Assembly (NCBI RefSeq): GCF_016900775.1
Contig: NZ_JACJKN010000020.1
Location: 1 to 46,988 of the forward strand
Length of the DNA: 46,988 nucleotides
Origin: Olsenella uli
GTDB taxonomy: Bacteria; Actinomycetota; Coriobacteriia; Coriobacteriales; Atopobiaceae
Direction of reading: 5' to 3'
In this document: positions 2,891 to 12,691 of the stretch, in pieces
Layout: every line of letters starts with the position of its first letter
How positions within the stretch are numbered: the stretch's first letter is position 1
The notes under the pieces: generated by a model
Database searches by the model: none
What the model saw: the letters and a program-made list of their open reading frames with translations, nothing else
What the model was told of the DNA's origin: nothing
Made by a program: the position numbers and the translations under genes

Positions 2891-3011
2891 TCTCGAATAA
2901 AAAAACGAGAAAAAATAAAATAACGAAAACGGATAAAACCACGATTTCGGTTATGGGGGAGCTTCTGGCTGGGAATCGCAAGGCGTTGCTCGCGGCGAGG
3001 GGCCGAGGTGT
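2891..3011 (+). pseudogene. Deletion remnant of a second AAA-ATPase locus
   Basis: Bases 2891-2944 copy the A-rich element that lies before the intact ATPase gene (5239-5292) with few differences. Directly after, 2953-2994 matches the last part of that gene (6384 onward): ATGGGGGAGCTTCTGG against ATGAGGGAGTACCTGA, then AATCGC and GCGTTGCT shared. I count 33 of 42 bases identical. Read in frame, it gives M-G-E-L-L-A-G-N-R-K-A-L-L-A where the intact protein has M-R-E-Y-L-I-E-N-R-E-A-L-L-A. The upstream element and the gene's 3' end are thus joined, with about 1.1 kb missing between them. No functional product is expected. Confidence 0.65.
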
Positions 3012-3025
3012 GACAGCCGATTTTT

Positions 3026-3135
3026 CGGTATTGAGCGAGATTTTTCGGTATAGATAACGGTATTATTAGCCAAATTACGGTATCGAAAGTAAAATAACGG
3101 TATAGAGATACGGTTTTACGGTATATTTACGGTAC
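3026..3135 (+). promoter_or_regulatory. Phased CGGTAT iterons upstream of the AlbA_2 gene
   Basis: CGGTAT occurs at 3026, 3046, 3058, 3078, 3098 and 3119, with variants CGGTTT at 3111 and CGGTAC at 3130. The main series 3026-3046-3078-3098-3119 is spaced at about 20 or 32 bases, near whole helical turns. The stretch is AT-rich and ends just before the start of the AlbA_2 gene. It looks like an array of direct binding sites, possibly for autoregulation. It also accounts for most of the 2792-3151 gap. Confidence 0.65.
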
Positions 3136-3166
3136 CGAGAAATAACCAACCTTGGCGGTGGTCACT

Positions 3167-4588
3167 ATGCCGGAGTCCCTTCACCAACTAATCCAAAACG
3201 TCCTCTCGATGCGCTGCGAGACTCAGACCATTGAGGTGAAGGCGGCCGCGCAGGGCGCCCCGCGCATCTACGACACGCTCTCGTCATTCTCGAACCAGGA
3301 GGAGGGCGGTGCCATTGTCTTTGGCATCGACGAGACGAATGGCTTTGAGCCGTGCGGCGTCTACGACGCCCAGACGCTGCAGAAGAGCATCGTCGAGCAG
3401 TGTCGGGAGATGGAGCCGCAGATTCACCCGTTCATTCAGACTGGTGAGCTGGAGGGTAAGACGATCGTTGTTGCCCATATCCGCGGCCTCATGATGGGGG
3501 AGCGCCCTGCGTATAGGCGCACGTCAGGCATGCTCAAGGGGTCCTACGTGCGCGTTGGCGATGCCGACGAGCGCATGACCGATGCCGAGCTGTATGAGAT
3601 CGACGCTTTCAAGAAGGGCGTCTCCGACGACGTCTCGGTGCACCCCGACGCCTCGCGCGGCATGCTCGATGCCGACTCCATGGCCCGATACATTCTCGAC
3701 GCCCGAAGGGATCGCCCCCGCCTCGAGAGTCGTAGCGACGAGGACGTGCTCCGCCTCACGGGGGTTCTGCGCGATGATGCCCCGACGCTTGCCGGAATGA
3801 TGACGCTTGGCGATTACCCCCAGAGGCTCTACCGGAACTGCTGCATAACCGCGGTCGCTGTGGCGGGGGAGCATATGGGTACCGGCGAGGAGGGCCAGCG
3901 CTTCCTGGATAACCGGACCATCGAGGGCACCATCCCGCAGATGCTGGAGGACGCGTGGGCATTCGTTGCTCGCAACGTTCGCGTCTCATCTGTCGTGAAG
4001 GGACTCAAGCGCGATAACGTCCCGGAGTATCCGGAGGTCGCTGTGAGGGAGATGATCGCGAACGCCCTCGTCCACAGGGGCTATGGTCCCTATGCGATAG
4101 GCACCCCCGTCCGCCTGGTTGTGTACTCAAACAGGATTGAGTGCGTCAATCCCGGTGGCATCTTCGGCGGAAACACCGTGGAAGCGCTGGGTCGGGAGAG
4201 CCTTCCAACGAGAAACCCCACGCTCATCTCCCTGCTTGAGATAACTCACGACGTGGAGAACCGACGCTCGGGGATTCCCGCGATGCGCGACGCGATGCGC
4301 GCCGCGGGACTCAGGGAGCCGGAGTTCGCAGAACGTAGGGGTACGTTCATGTGCACGCTCTACGGTGGGCGTGCCGAGAAGAACGACGGGGTCGTTGCCG
4401 ACGAGGAGCGAATCCTCGAGTTCTGTCGCGAGCCCCGCTCCAGGGAGGAGATCGCGGAGGAGCTTGGGCTTCAGGTCGAGACCGCTCGACGCACGCGCAT
4501 CCTCCCGCTGGTGCGCGCGGGGAAGTTGGCACTCACCATGCCGGACGTCCCGAGGAGCAAGTTCCAGCGGTATGTGAGGGTGGGGTAG
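3167..4588 (+). CDS. AlbA_2 DNA-binding / HATPase regulator (COG2865-like)
   Basis: 473 residues from ATG 3167 (TTG 3152 is possible). The N-terminal third (E-T-Q-T-I-E-V-K-A-A then SFSNQEEGGAIVFGIDE) is the Schlafen/AlbA_2 fold. The middle has VREMIANALVHRGYG with a following R-L-V-V-Y-S-N-R-I-E and GNTVEALGRESLPTRNP, the degenerate HATPase_c_4 domain typical of proteins once misnamed RecG-like. The C-terminus (RILEFCREPRSREEIAEELG) is a winged helix. Such proteins are predicted transcription regulators or defence-associated factors. The CGGTAT array before it suggests that it binds its own promoter; this is inference. Confidence 0.82.
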   Translation: MPESLHQLIQNVLSMRCETQTIEVKAAAQGAPRIYDTLSSFSNQEEGGAIVFGIDETNGFEPCGVYDAQTLQKSIVEQCREMEPQIHPFIQTGELEGKTIVVAHIRGLMMGERPAYRRTSGMLKGSYVRVGDADERMTDAELYEIDAFKKGVSDDVSVHPDASRGMLDADSMARYILDARRDRPRLESRSDEDVLRLTGVLRDDAPTLAGMMTLGDYPQRLYRNCCITAVAVAGEHMGTGEEGQRFLDNRTIEGTIPQMLEDAWAFVARNVRVSSVVKGLKRDNVPEYPEVAVREMIANALVHRGYGPYAIGTPVRLVVYSNRIECVNPGGIFGGNTVEALGRESLPTRNPTLISLLEITHDVENRRSGIPAMRDAMRAAGLREPEFAERRGTFMCTLYGGRAEKNDGVVADEERILEFCREPRSREEIAEELGLQVETARRTRILPLVRAGKLALTMPDVPRSKFQRYVRVG

Positions 4589-4664
4589 GCTCCTCTGCGA
4601 TGTTTTAGGACAGCATAAGCTGGCTCATGGGCAAACGAGTCCGTCATAGCAAGGGGAGGAAGAA

Positions 4665-4955
4665 GTGAAGGTCTATCTCGTCCGACATGAATCCGGCTGC
4701 TATAGCGACCACCTGAGCTACGTTGAGCGCGTCTACTCCACGCGCGAGGCTGCGATTGCCTATGTCGAATCAATCGAGTGGGAATACGAGCGATGCATTG
4801 ATGAGAACAGGTTCGAGGAGGACGACGCGTGGGAAACCGTAGCCGAGTGCCCGACTATGCACCCGTTCCGCCACGGGGACTGCTGGTTCGTCGACGGGGA
4901 CCCCGACTCAGACCGACCGTGCTGGTTCATCGACGAGTTCGAGGTGATGGAGTGA
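4665..4955 (+). CDS. Small acidic hypothetical protein
   Basis: 96 residues from GTG 4665, with a strong GGGGAGGA 5-12 bases upstream that decides the start. The sequence begins MKVYLVRHESGCYSDH, is rich in acidic and aromatic residues, and has WY/CW pairs (GDCWFVDGD, RPCWFIDEFEV). It has no signal peptide or membrane segment. I do not recognise a family; the N-terminus is only superficially like phosphoglycerate-mutase RHG motifs and lacks the rest of that fold. Confidence 0.6.
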   Translation: MKVYLVRHESGCYSDHLSYVERVYSTREAAIAYVESIEWEYERCIDENRFEEDDAWETVAECPTMHPFRHGDCWFVDGDPDSDRPCWFIDEFEVME

Positions 4956-5011
4956 CCGCCACGGTTCGGGGCGGCGGCAGCCTGACTGACAATCAAGTCT
5001 GACGCTATTGT

Positions 5012-5140
5012 GAGGAGCTTGGCAAGATCATCGACACCAACACCAAGGGCGTGCTCAGCGCCTTCGTCTGCCTGGCGAGCGACCTCGCGTCCTATGTGAC
5101 GGGCGAGGTCCTGGCCGTCGACGGCGGCATGACGGCGTAG
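5012..5140 (+). pseudogene. Internally deleted SDR (FabG-like) remnant
   Basis: One open frame of 42 codons ending at TAG 5138. It reads IIDTNTKGVL, the mid-protein segment of short-chain dehydrogenases, then runs straight into LASDLASYVTGEVLAVDGGM, the C-terminal signature of FabG-type enzymes. The roughly 100 or more residues that normally separate these, including the YxxxK catalytic site, are missing, as is the N-terminal Rossmann half. There is no start codon or ribosome site. This is a fossil of a gene deleted from both ends inward. Confidence 0.75.
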
Positions 5141-5238
5141 GTGCTGACTGTTGGCGCGTGTGGGCCCGGGAGCTGAGGGCGGCTCCCGGGCCTATTTGTT
5201 GTGGTCACGGGTCCGCAGCTGCGCTCGACGTCCTCCCA

Positions 5239-5298
5239 TCTCAAATAGAAAAACGAGAAAAAATAAAAAAACGAAAACGGATAAAATAACGAAAACGG
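5239..5298 (+). repeat. A-rich AAATAACGAAAACGG element before the ATPase gene
   Basis: A strongly A-rich tract with repeats of ACGAAAACGGATAAAA, ending 24 bases before the ATPase start. It is near identical to 2891-2944. In this high-GC setting two conserved copies of an A-tract suggest a promoter-linked binding or bending site, or part of a duplicated mobile unit. Together with the SDR remnant it fills the gap 4956-5321. Confidence 0.6.
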
Positions 5299-5321
5299 AG
5301 CCCTCGACGCGAGGAGGCGCC

Positions 5322-6446
5322 ATGAGGAAGGTCAACCCGTTCAAGCCGACTGCGGGTGCGGAGCCCCCAGTCCTGGCAGGTCGCGATGCGGTTCTCGACG
5401 ACTTTGAGATTGGGCTTGAGGAGGGCGTCGGCGCCCCCGGCAGGCTTATGCGCATTACCGGTCCGCGAGGTTCGGGCAAGACCGTTCTTCTCACTGAGCT
5501 GGGCGATATTGCCCGTCAGCGCGGGTGGCGCGTTGTGGACGTGACGGCGGCGGAGCACCTTCCCCAATTGATTTGTCGACGTCTCGAGAAGACGGACAGC
5601 GTTGACTACTCGGTAGAGCTTGATCTCATGGTCGTAAAGGCGAAGGCTCAGAAGGACGAGCCTCACAGGCCCGAGGATATCTATGAAGCCTTGGACCGCG
5701 TCGCCGGCAAGCTGACCGAGAAGGGCAAAGGCCTACTCGTGACAATTGACGAGATTCAGGACGCTAGCGTTGGGGACGTTCGCGATATTGCCGTAGCGAT
5801 TCAACATCTCATCCGGGAGCGTCGCAACATTGCCTTTGTCTTTGCTGGGCTGACTGCGGGAGTGATGAATCTGCTGGGGGAGGACGGGCCCACGTTCTTG
5901 AGGCGTGCGTACCCGGAAGAGCTGGACACCATTCCAGTAGACGAGGTCAAGACAGCGCTCAGGGCAACATTCGAGAAGAACGGCGTCCGGATTGACGAGG
6001 GCGCGCTTTCCTCTGCTGCTGATTCGACCGCAGGATACGCTTATCTCATTCAGTTGGTGGGCTACAACGTCTGGCGTGCCGCACAGGTTCGTGGCGGCGG
6101 GGAATTCGATGCCATTTCAGTTGAGGATGTCGAGAAGGGCGTTGTCGCCGCGCGGCGGGAGTTCGAGCGGACGGTGCTCGAGACGGCGATCGCTTATCTT
6201 CCCAAGACGGCGATGGAGTATTTGGTTGCGATGGCTGAGGACGCGCTGGCATCTTCAACGGGGGAAATTGCCAGCCGTCTGGGCGTTCCCGCCTCGTCCC
6301 TTTCTACCACACGAAAGCTGCTCGTCTCTCGTCAGGTCATTGAGCCGACGGCCCGTGGTTACGTGGGCTTCTCGATTCCGTTCATGAGGGAGTACCTGAT
6401 TGAGAATCGCGAGGCGTTGCTGGCGCGGTATGGGGTTGAGGGGTAA
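5322..6446 (+). CDS. AAA-type ATPase with C-terminal winged helix
   Basis: 374 residues from ATG 5322, fixed by GAGGAGG at 5311-5317; the open frame upstream only translates the A-rich element. Walker A is GPRGSGKT (residues 47-54) and Walker B is GLLVTIDEIQD near residue 140, followed by a sensor-like FVFAGLTAG. The last 90 residues (IASRLGVPASSLSTTRKLL) form a winged helix. This matches the archaeal-type ATPase family (ATPase_2/COG1672-like), whose cellular roles are mostly unknown and which is common on islands. It stands alone, with its own A-rich upstream region. A remnant of a paralogue lies at 2891-3011. Confidence 0.8.
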   Translation: MRKVNPFKPTAGAEPPVLAGRDAVLDDFEIGLEEGVGAPGRLMRITGPRGSGKTVLLTELGDIARQRGWRVVDVTAAEHLPQLICRRLEKTDSVDYSVELDLMVVKAKAQKDEPHRPEDIYEALDRVAGKLTEKGKGLLVTIDEIQDASVGDVRDIAVAIQHLIRERRNIAFVFAGLTAGVMNLLGEDGPTFLRRAYPEELDTIPVDEVKTALRATFEKNGVRIDEGALSSAADSTAGYAYLIQLVGYNVWRAAQVRGGGEFDAISVEDVEKGVVAARREFERTVLETAIAYLPKTAMEYLVAMAEDALASSTGEIASRLGVPASSLSTTRKLLVSRQVIEPTARGYVGFSIPFMREYLIENREALLARYGVEG

Positions 6447-6469
6447 ACGTCCTCCGCGTGCCCTAGGAG

Positions 6470-9166: not shown

Positions 9167-9331
9167 GTTCTGTGGACGCTGATAATAATTCGACAGTTCG
9201 CGTCATATGAGAGGGTGGTTAGGAGATATCCCGCGGCATATGCGGCTCTGTGCGTTTGTCATCAGGGGGGGGTTACGGCCTTAATATATTGCCCAATAGG
9301 TGATATCCATTCTCGGTCGGAAGAAGGGTGT

Positions 9332-10315
9332 ATGTCAGGACGAGAGAAGCCTTGGCTTACGCCACGCGAACAAGTCGAGCACTTGATTTCCAAAGGCGTC
9401 AAGTTTGAGCTGTGGCCTGAAGATGAGGCGGAAGATTATCTGAGGAAGAACAACTCGTACTTCCGCCTCAGGTCCTATCGTTCCAACTTCGCAAAACGAG
9501 TTGGGGGAGAGCAAGACGGGCAGTACATCGGTCTTGACTTCGCCATGCTAGTCGACCTCTCCATAATCGATATGTATCTGAGGAACGAGCTTCTTCCTCT
9601 GACGCTTGACATTGAGCATTTTTCCAAAATGAACCTCCTTGGGGTGATTGAGCAGAACGGCGAAGATGGCTACGCAATCGTTCGGGACTTTCTTAGGGGC
9701 TACACACGAGATGATGGAACAAACTCGGCAATTGACGAGATAAACCGCGGACGCACAAGCCCGTACACGATGGGGCTTATCGAGAGGCATCCAGATGCTG
9801 GCTATCCGGTATGGGAGTTCTTTGAGGTCATCCCCTTTGGGCGTTTTGCCCACTTTGTCAAATTCTGTGCTGACAGGTTTTCGGATAAGGAAATGCGGGA
9901 CCGCTTTTATCTGCTGCAAAGCGTGAAGGGACTACGAAATGCGTGTGCTCATAACAGCTGCATAATCAACGACATGGGGACGGGAAGCTCAACTCATGAG
10001 GCTCGACGTGTCGTGATGAGGGCTCTTGCTCAAATTGGGATTGGCAAAGACGCAAGAAAAACGAAGATGGGAAATGAAAGATTCCAGCAGATTGCTACGA
10101 CACTCTATCTGCATAGCCGCATTGCCTCAGAAGGGGTTATTCGGCATAGGTCGGAGCGGCTGGAGGAGCTCGTGAATAGAATGGCGAGACACAGCGACTA
10201 TTATGCCTCGGGCAGCCTTGTGTCTACTGGCTTTGCCTTTATTGGGGCCATGGTTAGTGGATGGTATTTTGGGGTGAGCGGCGAAAAGAAAGAGGCTATT
10301 GTTGCCGATTCCTAA
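9332..10315 (+). CDS. Abi_2 (AbiD/AbiF) family abortive-infection protein
   Basis: 327 residues from ATG 9332 (GAAGAAGGG upstream; the frame extends further but without initiation signals). It begins with the family pattern PWLTPREQVEHLISKGVKF, followed by NNSYFRLRSYR, and has a HEPN active site RNACAH at residues 202-207, the R-x4-H signature of HEPN ribonucleases. Abi_2 proteins cause growth arrest on phage infection by RNA cleavage. Unusually, the C-terminus adds a hydrophobic helix (LVSTGFAFIGAMVSGW, about residues 298-317) that could anchor it to the membrane. Base composition is lower in GC than the flanks, suggesting transfer. Confidence 0.85.
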   Translation: MSGREKPWLTPREQVEHLISKGVKFELWPEDEAEDYLRKNNSYFRLRSYRSNFAKRVGGEQDGQYIGLDFAMLVDLSIIDMYLRNELLPLTLDIEHFSKMNLLGVIEQNGEDGYAIVRDFLRGYTRDDGTNSAIDEINRGRTSPYTMGLIERHPDAGYPVWEFFEVIPFGRFAHFVKFCADRFSDKEMRDRFYLLQSVKGLRNACAHNSCIINDMGTGSSTHEARRVVMRALAQIGIGKDARKTKMGNERFQQIATTLYLHSRIASEGVIRHRSERLEELVNRMARHSDYYASGSLVSTGFAFIGAMVSGWYFGVSGEKKEAIVADS

Positions 10316-11163: not shown

Positions 11164-11919
11164 ATGCCGCTCGTTCGCCTGTCGGAGCGCATATCCTATC
11201 TCCCGCACGTCGAGGAGCTTGACCGTCCCGTGCTGGCGCTCGTGCGTGGGGACCGCCTCGCGCTCGCCGTCGACGCGGGCTACTCGCCGCGCCACGTCGC
11301 GGACCTCTACCACGGGCTCGTCTCGGCGGGCCTCCCGCTGCCCGACCTCACCGCGCTCACGCACTGGCACTGGGACCACAGCTTTGGCATGAGCGCCGTC
11401 GCTGGCCTCACGGTCGCCCGGAAAGAGACGAACGAGCACCTGCTCGAGGCGCGCGGAATCCTCTCGGACCCGGATGACCCGCGCCGCGCGGACATCCGCT
11501 CGGCCCAGGGCTTTGCCGAGGAGTTCCCACCCGGGGAGGACCCCGTCGTCGTGACCGCCGACATAGAGTTTGAGGGCGAGCTCTCGATCGACCTCGGCGG
11601 CGTGACGGCCCGCCTGATCGCCACGGACGCGCCCCACACCAACGACTCTACGCTCGTCTACGTTCCCGAGGAGCGCACTCTCTTCGTGGGCGACTGCTTC
11701 TGCGAGGACTACGACTCCGGCGACGACCCGTCCGTCTGCCACCTCGACCCCGCGCGGCTGCGCGCACTTCTCGCCACGATTGAGGGCCTGGACCCGGCAC
11801 CGGAGACCTTCGTCATCGGCCACTGCCCGCCTGAGGGCCCGGGCGAGTTCGTCGGATACCTGAACGAGCTGCTGAAGGCGGCCCCGGGGGAGGGAGGCAA
11901 ACATGCCAACGCTTCGTGA
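11164..11919 (+). CDS. Metallo-beta-lactamase-fold hydrolase
   Basis: 251 residues; GGAGG lies 4 bases before ATG 11164. The zinc-binding signature is THWHWDHSFG (H67, H69, D71, H72), with later ligands in APHTNDSTLVYV and FVGDCFCEDYD and the final His in FVIGHCPPEG. This is the generic two-metal hydrolase fold (glyoxalase II-like subgroup). Its last 17 bases overlap the start of the second ADP-ribosylglycohydrolase, so the two are translated together and may act on related ADP-ribose or nucleotide substrates. Substrate unknown. Confidence 0.85.
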   Translation: MPLVRLSERISYLPHVEELDRPVLALVRGDRLALAVDAGYSPRHVADLYHGLVSAGLPLPDLTALTHWHWDHSFGMSAVAGLTVARKETNEHLLEARGILSDPDDPRRADIRSAQGFAEEFPPGEDPVVVTADIEFEGELSIDLGGVTARLIATDAPHTNDSTLVYVPEERTLFVGDCFCEDYDSGDDPSVCHLDPARLRALLATIEGLDPAPETFVIGHCPPEGPGEFVGYLNELLKAAPGEGGKHANAS

Positions 11920-12691
11920 CGCGATCTTTGGCCTGGCCGTGGGTGACGCGCTCGGAGTGCCGTACGAGTTCCGCCCGCGCGGGAGCTTCACCTGCACGGG
12001 GATGGTCGGCTACGGCACGCACGACCAGCCGGCGGGCACCTGGTCGGACGACACGAGCATGACGCTCGCCACCTGCGACAGCATCCGCGCGTGCGGGTGC
12101 GTGGACACGGCGGACATGCTCGAGCGGTTCCGCGCGTGGATCGACGGCGGTGCCTACGCCATCGACGGCGTGGTCTTTGACTACGGCAACACCACGGCCC
12201 GCGCGCTCGCCGCCGGCACGGGCTGCGCGGGCGAGCGCGACAACGGCAACGGCTCGCTCATGCGCATCGCGCCGCTCGCCTTCACGGACGCCACCGACGA
12301 CGAGGTCCGCGCGGTCTCGGCCATCACGCACGCGCACCCCGTCTCAGCCGAGACCTGCGTGGAGATGGTGCGCGTGATGCGCGCGCTCGCGGCCGGCGCC
12401 TCGCCGGCGGAGGCGGTCCCGGACTACGAGGTCCTTCTCGCCGCCAGCGAGAAGGACCTGGGCTCGGGCGGATTTGTGCGAGATACCTACTGCGCCGCGC
12501 TCTGGTGCCTTGTGGTCTCGGGGTCCTACGAGGAATGCGTGCTGCGCGCGGTCAACCTCGGGGACGACACGGACACCACGGCCGCCGTGGCCGGGGCGCT
12601 CGCGGGCATCGCGTACGGGGCGGACGCCATCCCGGCCACATGGATGGAGGTGCTGCGCGGCAGGGACATCATCGAGCGCTGCCTCTTCTGA
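11903..12691 (+). CDS. ADP-ribosylglycohydrolase family protein (copy 2)
   Basis: 262 residues starting inside the end of the metallohydrolase gene, with GGGAGG 4-9 bases upstream. It keeps the canonical GLAVGDALG, TWSDDTSM, DNGNGSLMR and GDDTDTTAA metal-site segments, so it looks fully functional, unlike copy 1 where one glycine is replaced. Copy 2 has a short extra segment near residue 175 (LLAASEKDLG). Its codon use fits the high-GC core, so this may be the resident gene, with copy 1 as the duplicate or transferred relative. Confidence 0.9.
   Translation: MPTLRDAIFGLAVGDALGVPYEFRPRGSFTCTGMVGYGTHDQPAGTWSDDTSMTLATCDSIRACGCVDTADMLERFRAWIDGGAYAIDGVVFDYGNTTARALAAGTGCAGERDNGNGSLMRIAPLAFTDATDDEVRAVSAITHAHPVSAETCVEMVRVMRALAAGASPAEAVPDYEVLLAASEKDLGSGGFVRDTYCAALWCLVVSGSYEECVLRAVNLGDDTDTTAAVAGALAGIAYGADAIPATWMEVLRGRDIIERCLF

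Follow-up and report, generated by a model that had tools for sequence, protein, structure and literature searches.

What is the purpose of the row of short direct repeats that stands in front of the gene for P0001, an SLFN_AlbA_2/HATPase_c_4 protein of Olsenella uli, and which protein reads them? We analyzed the whole stretch of DNA around this locus, 46,988 nucleotides of contig NZ_JACJKN010000020.1, which is called the window here. The initial annotation of this DNA had proposed that the repeats form an autoregulatory array for the gene that follows. Relatives of P0001 were found in 203 of the 297 genomes searched in the order, about two thirds (E<=0.001, some of them partial). Among the matches listed in the open-licence literature, none describes a DNA target of this family or reports operator or autoregulation work on it. 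The features discussed below are as follows.

2894..2944, + strand: second repeat array, ATAAAATAACGAAAACGG type, a different word, upstream of the CGGTAT array
3026..3135, + strand: array of eight CGGTAT-type sites (letters of the window; conserved in orthologues)
3122..3127, + strand: candidate -10 element TATATT overlapping site 7 (inferred from sequence)
3167..4588, + strand: gene for the SLFN_AlbA_2/HATPase_c_4/winged-helix protein P0001, 473 amino acids (ORF, Pfam)
3218..3580, + strand: SLFN_AlbA_2 domain, residues 18-138 (PF04326, 52.1 bits, cut-off 25.3)
4100..4360, + strand: HATPase_c_4 domain, residues 312-398 (PF13749, 71 bits, cut-off 26)
4385..4585, + strand: predicted winged-helix domain, residues 407-473, proposed DNA reader (model, structural superposition)

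The CGGTAT array, its phasing and its conservation

Exact copies of CGGTAT start at 3026, 3046, 3058, 3078, 3098 and 3119 on the + strand, and the variants CGGTTT and CGGTAC start at 3111 and 3130. The eight sites thus lie at offsets of 0, 20, 32, 52, 72, 85, 93 and 104 from the first one, and the start codon of the 3167-4588 gene is found 32 to 141 bases downstream of them. These positions, together with shuffles, confirm the six CGGTAT copies and two variants over about 110 bases that had been reported before: only 4 of 5000 dinucleotide shuffles of 3017-3140 contained any hexamer with six copies. A stretch of 115 bp holds seven CGGTA in the array and at most two elsewhere in the window, on either strand. 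The word CGGTAT is not enriched in the window as a whole (13 copies against 8.8 expected, a number reached by 9 of 100 shuffles), therefore only its clustering at 3026-3135 is special. A search of the genome for ACGGTAT followed by ACGGTA within 30 bases gave four matches, all of them within the array, while the same paired pattern read backwards as a control gave one.

The intervals between the sites are unequal (20, 12, 20, 20, 13, 8 and 11 bp) yet in phase. The seven CGGTA sites fit a period of 10.35 bp with R=0.951 (P=0.003, random placement, period free), and the six exact CGGTAT sites do so with R=0.950 (P=0.006). The fit of all eight sites is weaker (R=0.882, P=0.018) because the site at 3111 is about 0.17 turn off. 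The main copies therefore do face one side of the helix, as had been claimed from their spacing; the five copies listed for this claim stand, but the one at 3058 had been left out although it is exact and in phase. Two marks of an autoregulatory array are present in the window: several sites of the same word clustered beyond chance, and helical phasing.

A -10-like hexamer at 3122-3127 was examined as part of a candidate promoter. It reads TATATT, TAGAAT, TATATT and TAAAAT in the window and the three orthologues described below, and neither a promoter scan nor inspection of the sequence found a convincing -35 hexamer before it. Sites 7 and 8 of the array overlap and follow this candidate -10, and the other six sites are located upstream, mostly in phase. 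The sole hit of the promoter scan, at 3067-3095, was dropped; its -10 is not kept in the orthologues.

Proteins 95-96% identical to P0001 are encoded in Thermophilibacter provencensis (L035), Olsenella sp. SW781 (L036) and an uncultured Collinsella bin (L037); three further loci (L006, L007 and L152) read identically over the stretches compared. The initial annotation had suggested aligning such upstream regions, and had named loss of the phasing in close relatives, or homologues with no CGGTAT arrays, as findings that would speak against its proposal. The alignment showed that the array is present in all three orthologues with its cores conserved. In T. provencensis and SW781, 37/40 and 38/40 bases of the CGGTA cores and 70/80 and 74/80 of the other array bases are identical to the window, so both are too similar to it to be informative for footprinting. 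The most diverged sequence, the Collinsella bin, retains 38/40 core bases but only 46/80 of the other array bases, showing that the sites are conserved while the spacers drift. Outside the array, its identity to the window is 18/76 upstream (2941-3016), 22/30 in the leader and 31/39 at the start of the coding sequence. All seven site intervals are the same as in the window in SW781, and six of seven are in both T. provencensis and the Collinsella bin, where a deletion of 2 bp and 1 bp, respectively, lies between sites 3 and 4. Phasing is thus kept in close relatives except for one shortened interval.

A blastn comparison of the window with the Collinsella bin around the gene gave a match that spans 3040-4577, the array and the gene with the flanks excluded, and site 1 at 3026 is also kept in the alignment. 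Since the match comprises array and gene only, both seem to travel as one unit, and CGGTAT array and AlbA_2 gene seem from these alignments to be inherited together. The bin has a single further match, which falls on the end of the ATPase gene in the window.

Repeat arrays before more distant homologues

Upstream regions were collected from two sets of homologues. For the discovery set, 127 homologue ORFs yielded 115 with usable N-terminus and upstream region, and 75 of these were non-redundant: 73 from the family or genus and two from Bifidobacterium (L038 and L039), which is outside the order. Controls came from the same loci (413 raw, 382 kept, 353 after removal of 29 that overlapped homologue upstreams). 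Since visual inspection of about 35 upstreams had given rise to the hypothesis, the discovery results are partly post hoc. The replication set comes from further families within the order, and the thresholds of discovery were applied to it unchanged; here 82 ORFs minus three without N-terminus, three too near to discovery and seven redundant ones left 69. Its 60 stretches were hand-picked among the matches listed with their upstreams unseen, except for eight kept loci that had been seen earlier.

Beyond the orthologues of at least 95% identity, homologues are literally without CGGTAT arrays, and many have other words in a similar layout. At least three CGGTA in 200 bp (both strands) were present in none of the other 74 discovery homologues and in one of 69 replication homologues (L154, which is 51% identical and has the related word TATCGGTA). 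Repeats of any word were scored as exact 7-mers against shuffles preserving the dinucleotides of each single sequence. Direct repeats (P<=0.01) were found in 25/75 homologue but only 24/353 control upstreams of the discovery set (odds ratio 6.9, P=7.5e-9), inverted repeats in 29/75 and 33/353, and either type in 35/75 and 45/353. Without the two Bifidobacterium loci the homologue counts are 24/73 for direct repeats and 34/73 in total, and with all 382 controls the comparison for direct repeats is 25/75 versus 30/382. The replication set gave 30/69 versus 15/214 for direct repeats and 39/69 versus 27/214 for direct or inverted ones; when the eight previously seen loci were removed, 25/61 and 34/61 remained, with controls at 15/214 and 27/214. 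Where the upstream gap is at least 120 bp, direct repeats occur in 22/43 homologues versus 17/198 controls (discovery) and 23/47 versus 13/125 (replication); the GC content of these gap-filtered upstreams is 0.50 and 0.46 in homologues versus 0.58 and 0.56 in controls (discovery and replication). A motif search allowing one mismatch gave a weaker contrast than exact 7-mers: 15/75 versus 17/353 for direct repeats, 25/75 versus 25/353 for both strands and 27/75 versus 36/353 for either.

Significant direct repeats are absent from 50/75 discovery and 39/69 replication homologues, and about half of the homologues have no array by these repeat tests. When upstreams were drawn from across the phylum, 24 were usable and 7 of them scored positive: 5/9 in the same order, where eight of the nine loci also belong to the replication set, and 2/15 elsewhere. 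The latter is the control rate, so the array habit is shown for this order only. A scan of viral_contigs yielded 52 stretches, with no relative among them.

The words differ from locus to locus. The motif search found GGTTAG words at 0, 9, 20, 29 and 40 before L092 (P 0.01), four TCAGTCCA-like words in 21-bp steps before L041 (P 0.03), TTCAGTGA-like words at 0, 11, 31, 63 and 74 before L050 (P 0.01), and TCGCAGAA-like words in both orientations and 11-bp steps before L060 (P 0.01). The genome of the window itself encodes a paralogue, L119, whose array differs in being of the GCGCAAAA type and for the most part inverted (P 0.005 for inverted and 0.07 for direct repeats), and a third HATPase_c_4 match, L122, is below threshold. 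Among the upstreams with near-perfect short tandem repeats are those of L169 and L221 (gggaactctacta..., caggtagaat...); repeats of this kind may have arisen when an operator unit expanded recently.

Helical phasing recurs in the two sets of homologues. With each locus counted once per distance, spacings of 20 and 21 bp between repeats were seen 28 times in the discovery homologues other than the window's own (74 loci), where shuffles predict 5.3. For the ratio of in-phase to out-of-phase distances, multiples of 3 were left out because coding sequence inflates such distances. This ratio is 1.52 (0.96-2.34) in the discovery set and 2.73 (1.81-4.39) in the replication set, or 2.55 (1.69-4.13) there without the eight previously seen loci. 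Pooled and with the window excluded, 143 homologues have a ratio of 2.07 (1.56-2.85) and 567 controls one of 0.99 (0.80-1.22). When all distances are used the controls are not flat (1.40, 1.23-1.64, versus 2.40, 1.87-3.12, in homologues), which is ascribed to coding 3-periodicity. With the gap filter, the ratios are 1.85 (1.33-2.62) and 1.22 (0.92-1.62) for homologues and controls, and these intervals overlap.

Domains of P0001 and the proposed DNA reader

P0001 belongs to the proteins with SLFN_AlbA_2 and HATPase_c_4 domains, which we take to be COG2865. Its sequence matches two solved structures, 3LMM (DIP2311 of Corynebacterium diphtheriae, deposited as uncharacterised) and 2KYY. The AlphaFold2 model of P0001 is poor overall (mean pLDDT 53.6, 6 sequences), and its top structural match, again 3LMM, has a Z of 14.3 over 261 residues at an rmsd of 13.6 A on this poor model; our claims are therefore limited to the C-terminal domain. 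From residue 409 the model shows a helix-helix-helix-strand-strand order with local pLDDT of about 75-87 (10-residue block means). Residues 407-473 superpose on the C-terminal part of the Fic protein 4RGL (Z 9.5, 66 residues, 2.2 A) and also on ArsR, MarR-type and Zalpha winged-helix structures; in Pfam, a Fic-like_C match at the C-terminus reaches 21.7 bits, under the cut-off of 27. Because of these superpositions the C-terminal winged helix is the likely DNA reader.

The adjoining gene had been annotated as a DNA-binding AlbA_2 protein. The AlbA_2 domain is there (PF04326), but the model makes the winged helix at 407-473 the likelier reader of the DNA, not AlbA_2. Passages in two papers describe AlbA_2 as DNA-binding (PMC6299218, PMC5445408), and according to passages in two others Schlafen RNases share this domain class (PMC5862951, PMC10567574). 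P0001 resembles such RNases, of which SLFN13 is one (PMC5862951), in having the SLFN/AlbA_2 domain class, PF04326. Within residues 18-55 (3218-3331), E or D stands at 18 and 23 in 74/75 homologues and K25 is present in 75/75. Schlafen-type nucleases have three acidic active-site residues; the candidate third acidic position of the P0001 family, column 55, is variable, with D in only 25/75 homologues. E295 and N299 of the HATPase_c_4 protein are invariant (75/75). PADLOC also matched P0001 with its pAgo and Aga models; these matches probably reflect shared domains and were set aside.

We also compared the words with the proteins. In the 254 homologue pairs that share 40% identity or more, conservation is lowest in the winged helix (median 0.31, versus 0.54 for AlbA_2, 0.49 for the linker and 0.55 for HATPase_c_4), as would be expected for a specificity domain. 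Operator and protein similarity do not correlate over all pairs (Spearman 0.009, P=0.65). For the 104 pairs of 50-85% identity the correlation is weak (AlbA_2 0.20, HATPase 0.23, winged helix 0.24), and that of the linker is not significant (0.11). In the 74 pairs that bear arrays, operator similarity is predicted least well by the winged helix (0.15, P=0.20, versus 0.26-0.31), so the assignment of this domain as DNA reader rests on fold and variability. Judged by these sequence comparisons, the array words diverge too fast to be traced across homologues.

Probable autoregulation, its alternatives and the surroundings of the gene

The CGGTAT array is probably the operator through which the gene behind it regulates itself, whether negatively or positively. 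This explains the locus best because a co-inherited, conserved and phased array precedes a winged-helix protein, and many relatives have private arrays. The proposal of the initial annotation thus gains support from array-gene co-inheritance, from core conservation and from arrays before many relatives in the order. The C-terminal winged helix of P0001 would read each CGGTAT-type site, and several molecules would sit side by side on one helix face, spaced by about one or two turns. Such binding would be cooperative and would give a steep response to the concentration of P0001 itself. Most likely, full occupancy would shut the promoter, with the upstream sites setting the threshold of repression, and the HATPase_c_4 domain could gate binding by ATP or a ligand.

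Bound sites that overlap and follow a -10 usually block polymerase. Repression is favored because sites 7 and 8 lie in this way, and the larger part of the probability that we give to autoregulation, by a clear margin, goes to autorepression. The remainder goes to positive autoregulation, in which the bound protein would recruit RNA polymerase to a promoter without -35. It is a possible but less favored form of the same reading: the conserved -10 has no good -35 and six of the eight sites are upstream of it, mostly in phase, but the positions of sites 7 and 8 argue against it.

Cooperative autoregulator arrays at toxin-antitoxin promoters are short, helically spaced sites over the promoter of the binder itself. 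The array in the window is similar in having several short, helically spaced sites before its own gene. It differs in its eight direct sites over 110 bp and its large HATPase/winged-helix protein, and the words of the P0001 family, unlike those promoters, change from homologue to homologue. Each SLFN_AlbA_2/HATPase_c_4 protein with such a row may switch its own gene via a private set of sites. If members do read private arrays beside their own genes, genome sequence could directly reveal the targets of many paralogues, and these targets would provide a natural data set for specificity change in winged helices and for avoidance of cross-talk between paralogues in one cell. More speculatively, the family might consist of mutually insulated self-switches, HATPase-gated cooperative rows on private phased arrays, in which the word evolves fast with the winged helix and the layout stays; the array-gene cassette would move between genomes, perhaps keeping an effector domain of the Schlafen type silent until it is called for.

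An unlikely alternative to autoregulation is that the array is the operator of some other DNA-binding protein in the cell, for example a neighboring antitoxin or a global regulator, with the AlbA_2 gene as a mere target. Sequence cannot tell binding partners apart, and the region just upstream contains a RelB/DinJ-like match, though a weak one, and the gene for a PIN protein. However, the exact paired pattern occurs in one place only in the genome, the Collinsella bin shares array and gene without the flanking genes, and many relatives have unrelated words at this position, a pattern that a regulator common to them would leave unexplained. It is less probable still that the array is a neutral tandem repeat made by slippage. 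Although 24/353 control upstreams also pass the direct-repeat test, identity is still 38/40 in the cores but down to 46/80 in the other array bases, and the spacings are unequal but in phase. Least probable of all are replication or partition iterons: direct repeats 20-21 bp apart resemble those of plasmids, but no Rep gene was found among the 29 contig ORFs scanned with Pfam (nine at E<=0.001, 20 at E<=1e-10 only), as had been noted before, the contig is chromosome-like and metabolic (OTCase, ThiC, PALP, XdhC and FecCD genes), and many homologues in other genomes have private arrays of different words.

Of the 20 ORFs scanned at E<=1e-10, five have no family at that threshold. A toxin-antitoxin-like pair is located at 1152-2024 (the RelB/DinJ-like match, below cut-off, then the PIN-domain protein). 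Two ADP-ribosylglycohydrolases and an Abi_2 protein are encoded near the array (214-1005, 9215-10315 and 11903-12691), so the first 13 kb of the contig look variable and defence-like. The match to SW781 jumps from 4580 to 6462, and the stretch with DUF7336 and an AAA ATPase (4581-6461) is unmatched there; in the Collinsella bin, the end of this ATPase is found upstream of the AlbA_2 gene. Modules around the AlbA_2 gene seem from these matches to shuffle.

A link between the second array, at 2894-2944, and the P0001 gene was considered and set aside; its word is different and it is also found before the ATPase gene. Arrays of this ATAAAATAACGAAAACGG type occur twice, at 2891-2938 and 5239-5286 with 45/48 bases alike, and extend to about 2944 and 5302; the second copy directly precedes the AAA ATPase gene 5322-6446. 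ATPases related to that of L100 (L100, L084, L059, L087 and other loci) have upstream arrays in 6/10 cases of the control set by either test and in 4/10 by direct repeats alone. Relatives of the window's own ATPase have them in 0/2, but in L035 the start position taken for the gene is probably wrong. These ATPases may form another family whose members carry private arrays.
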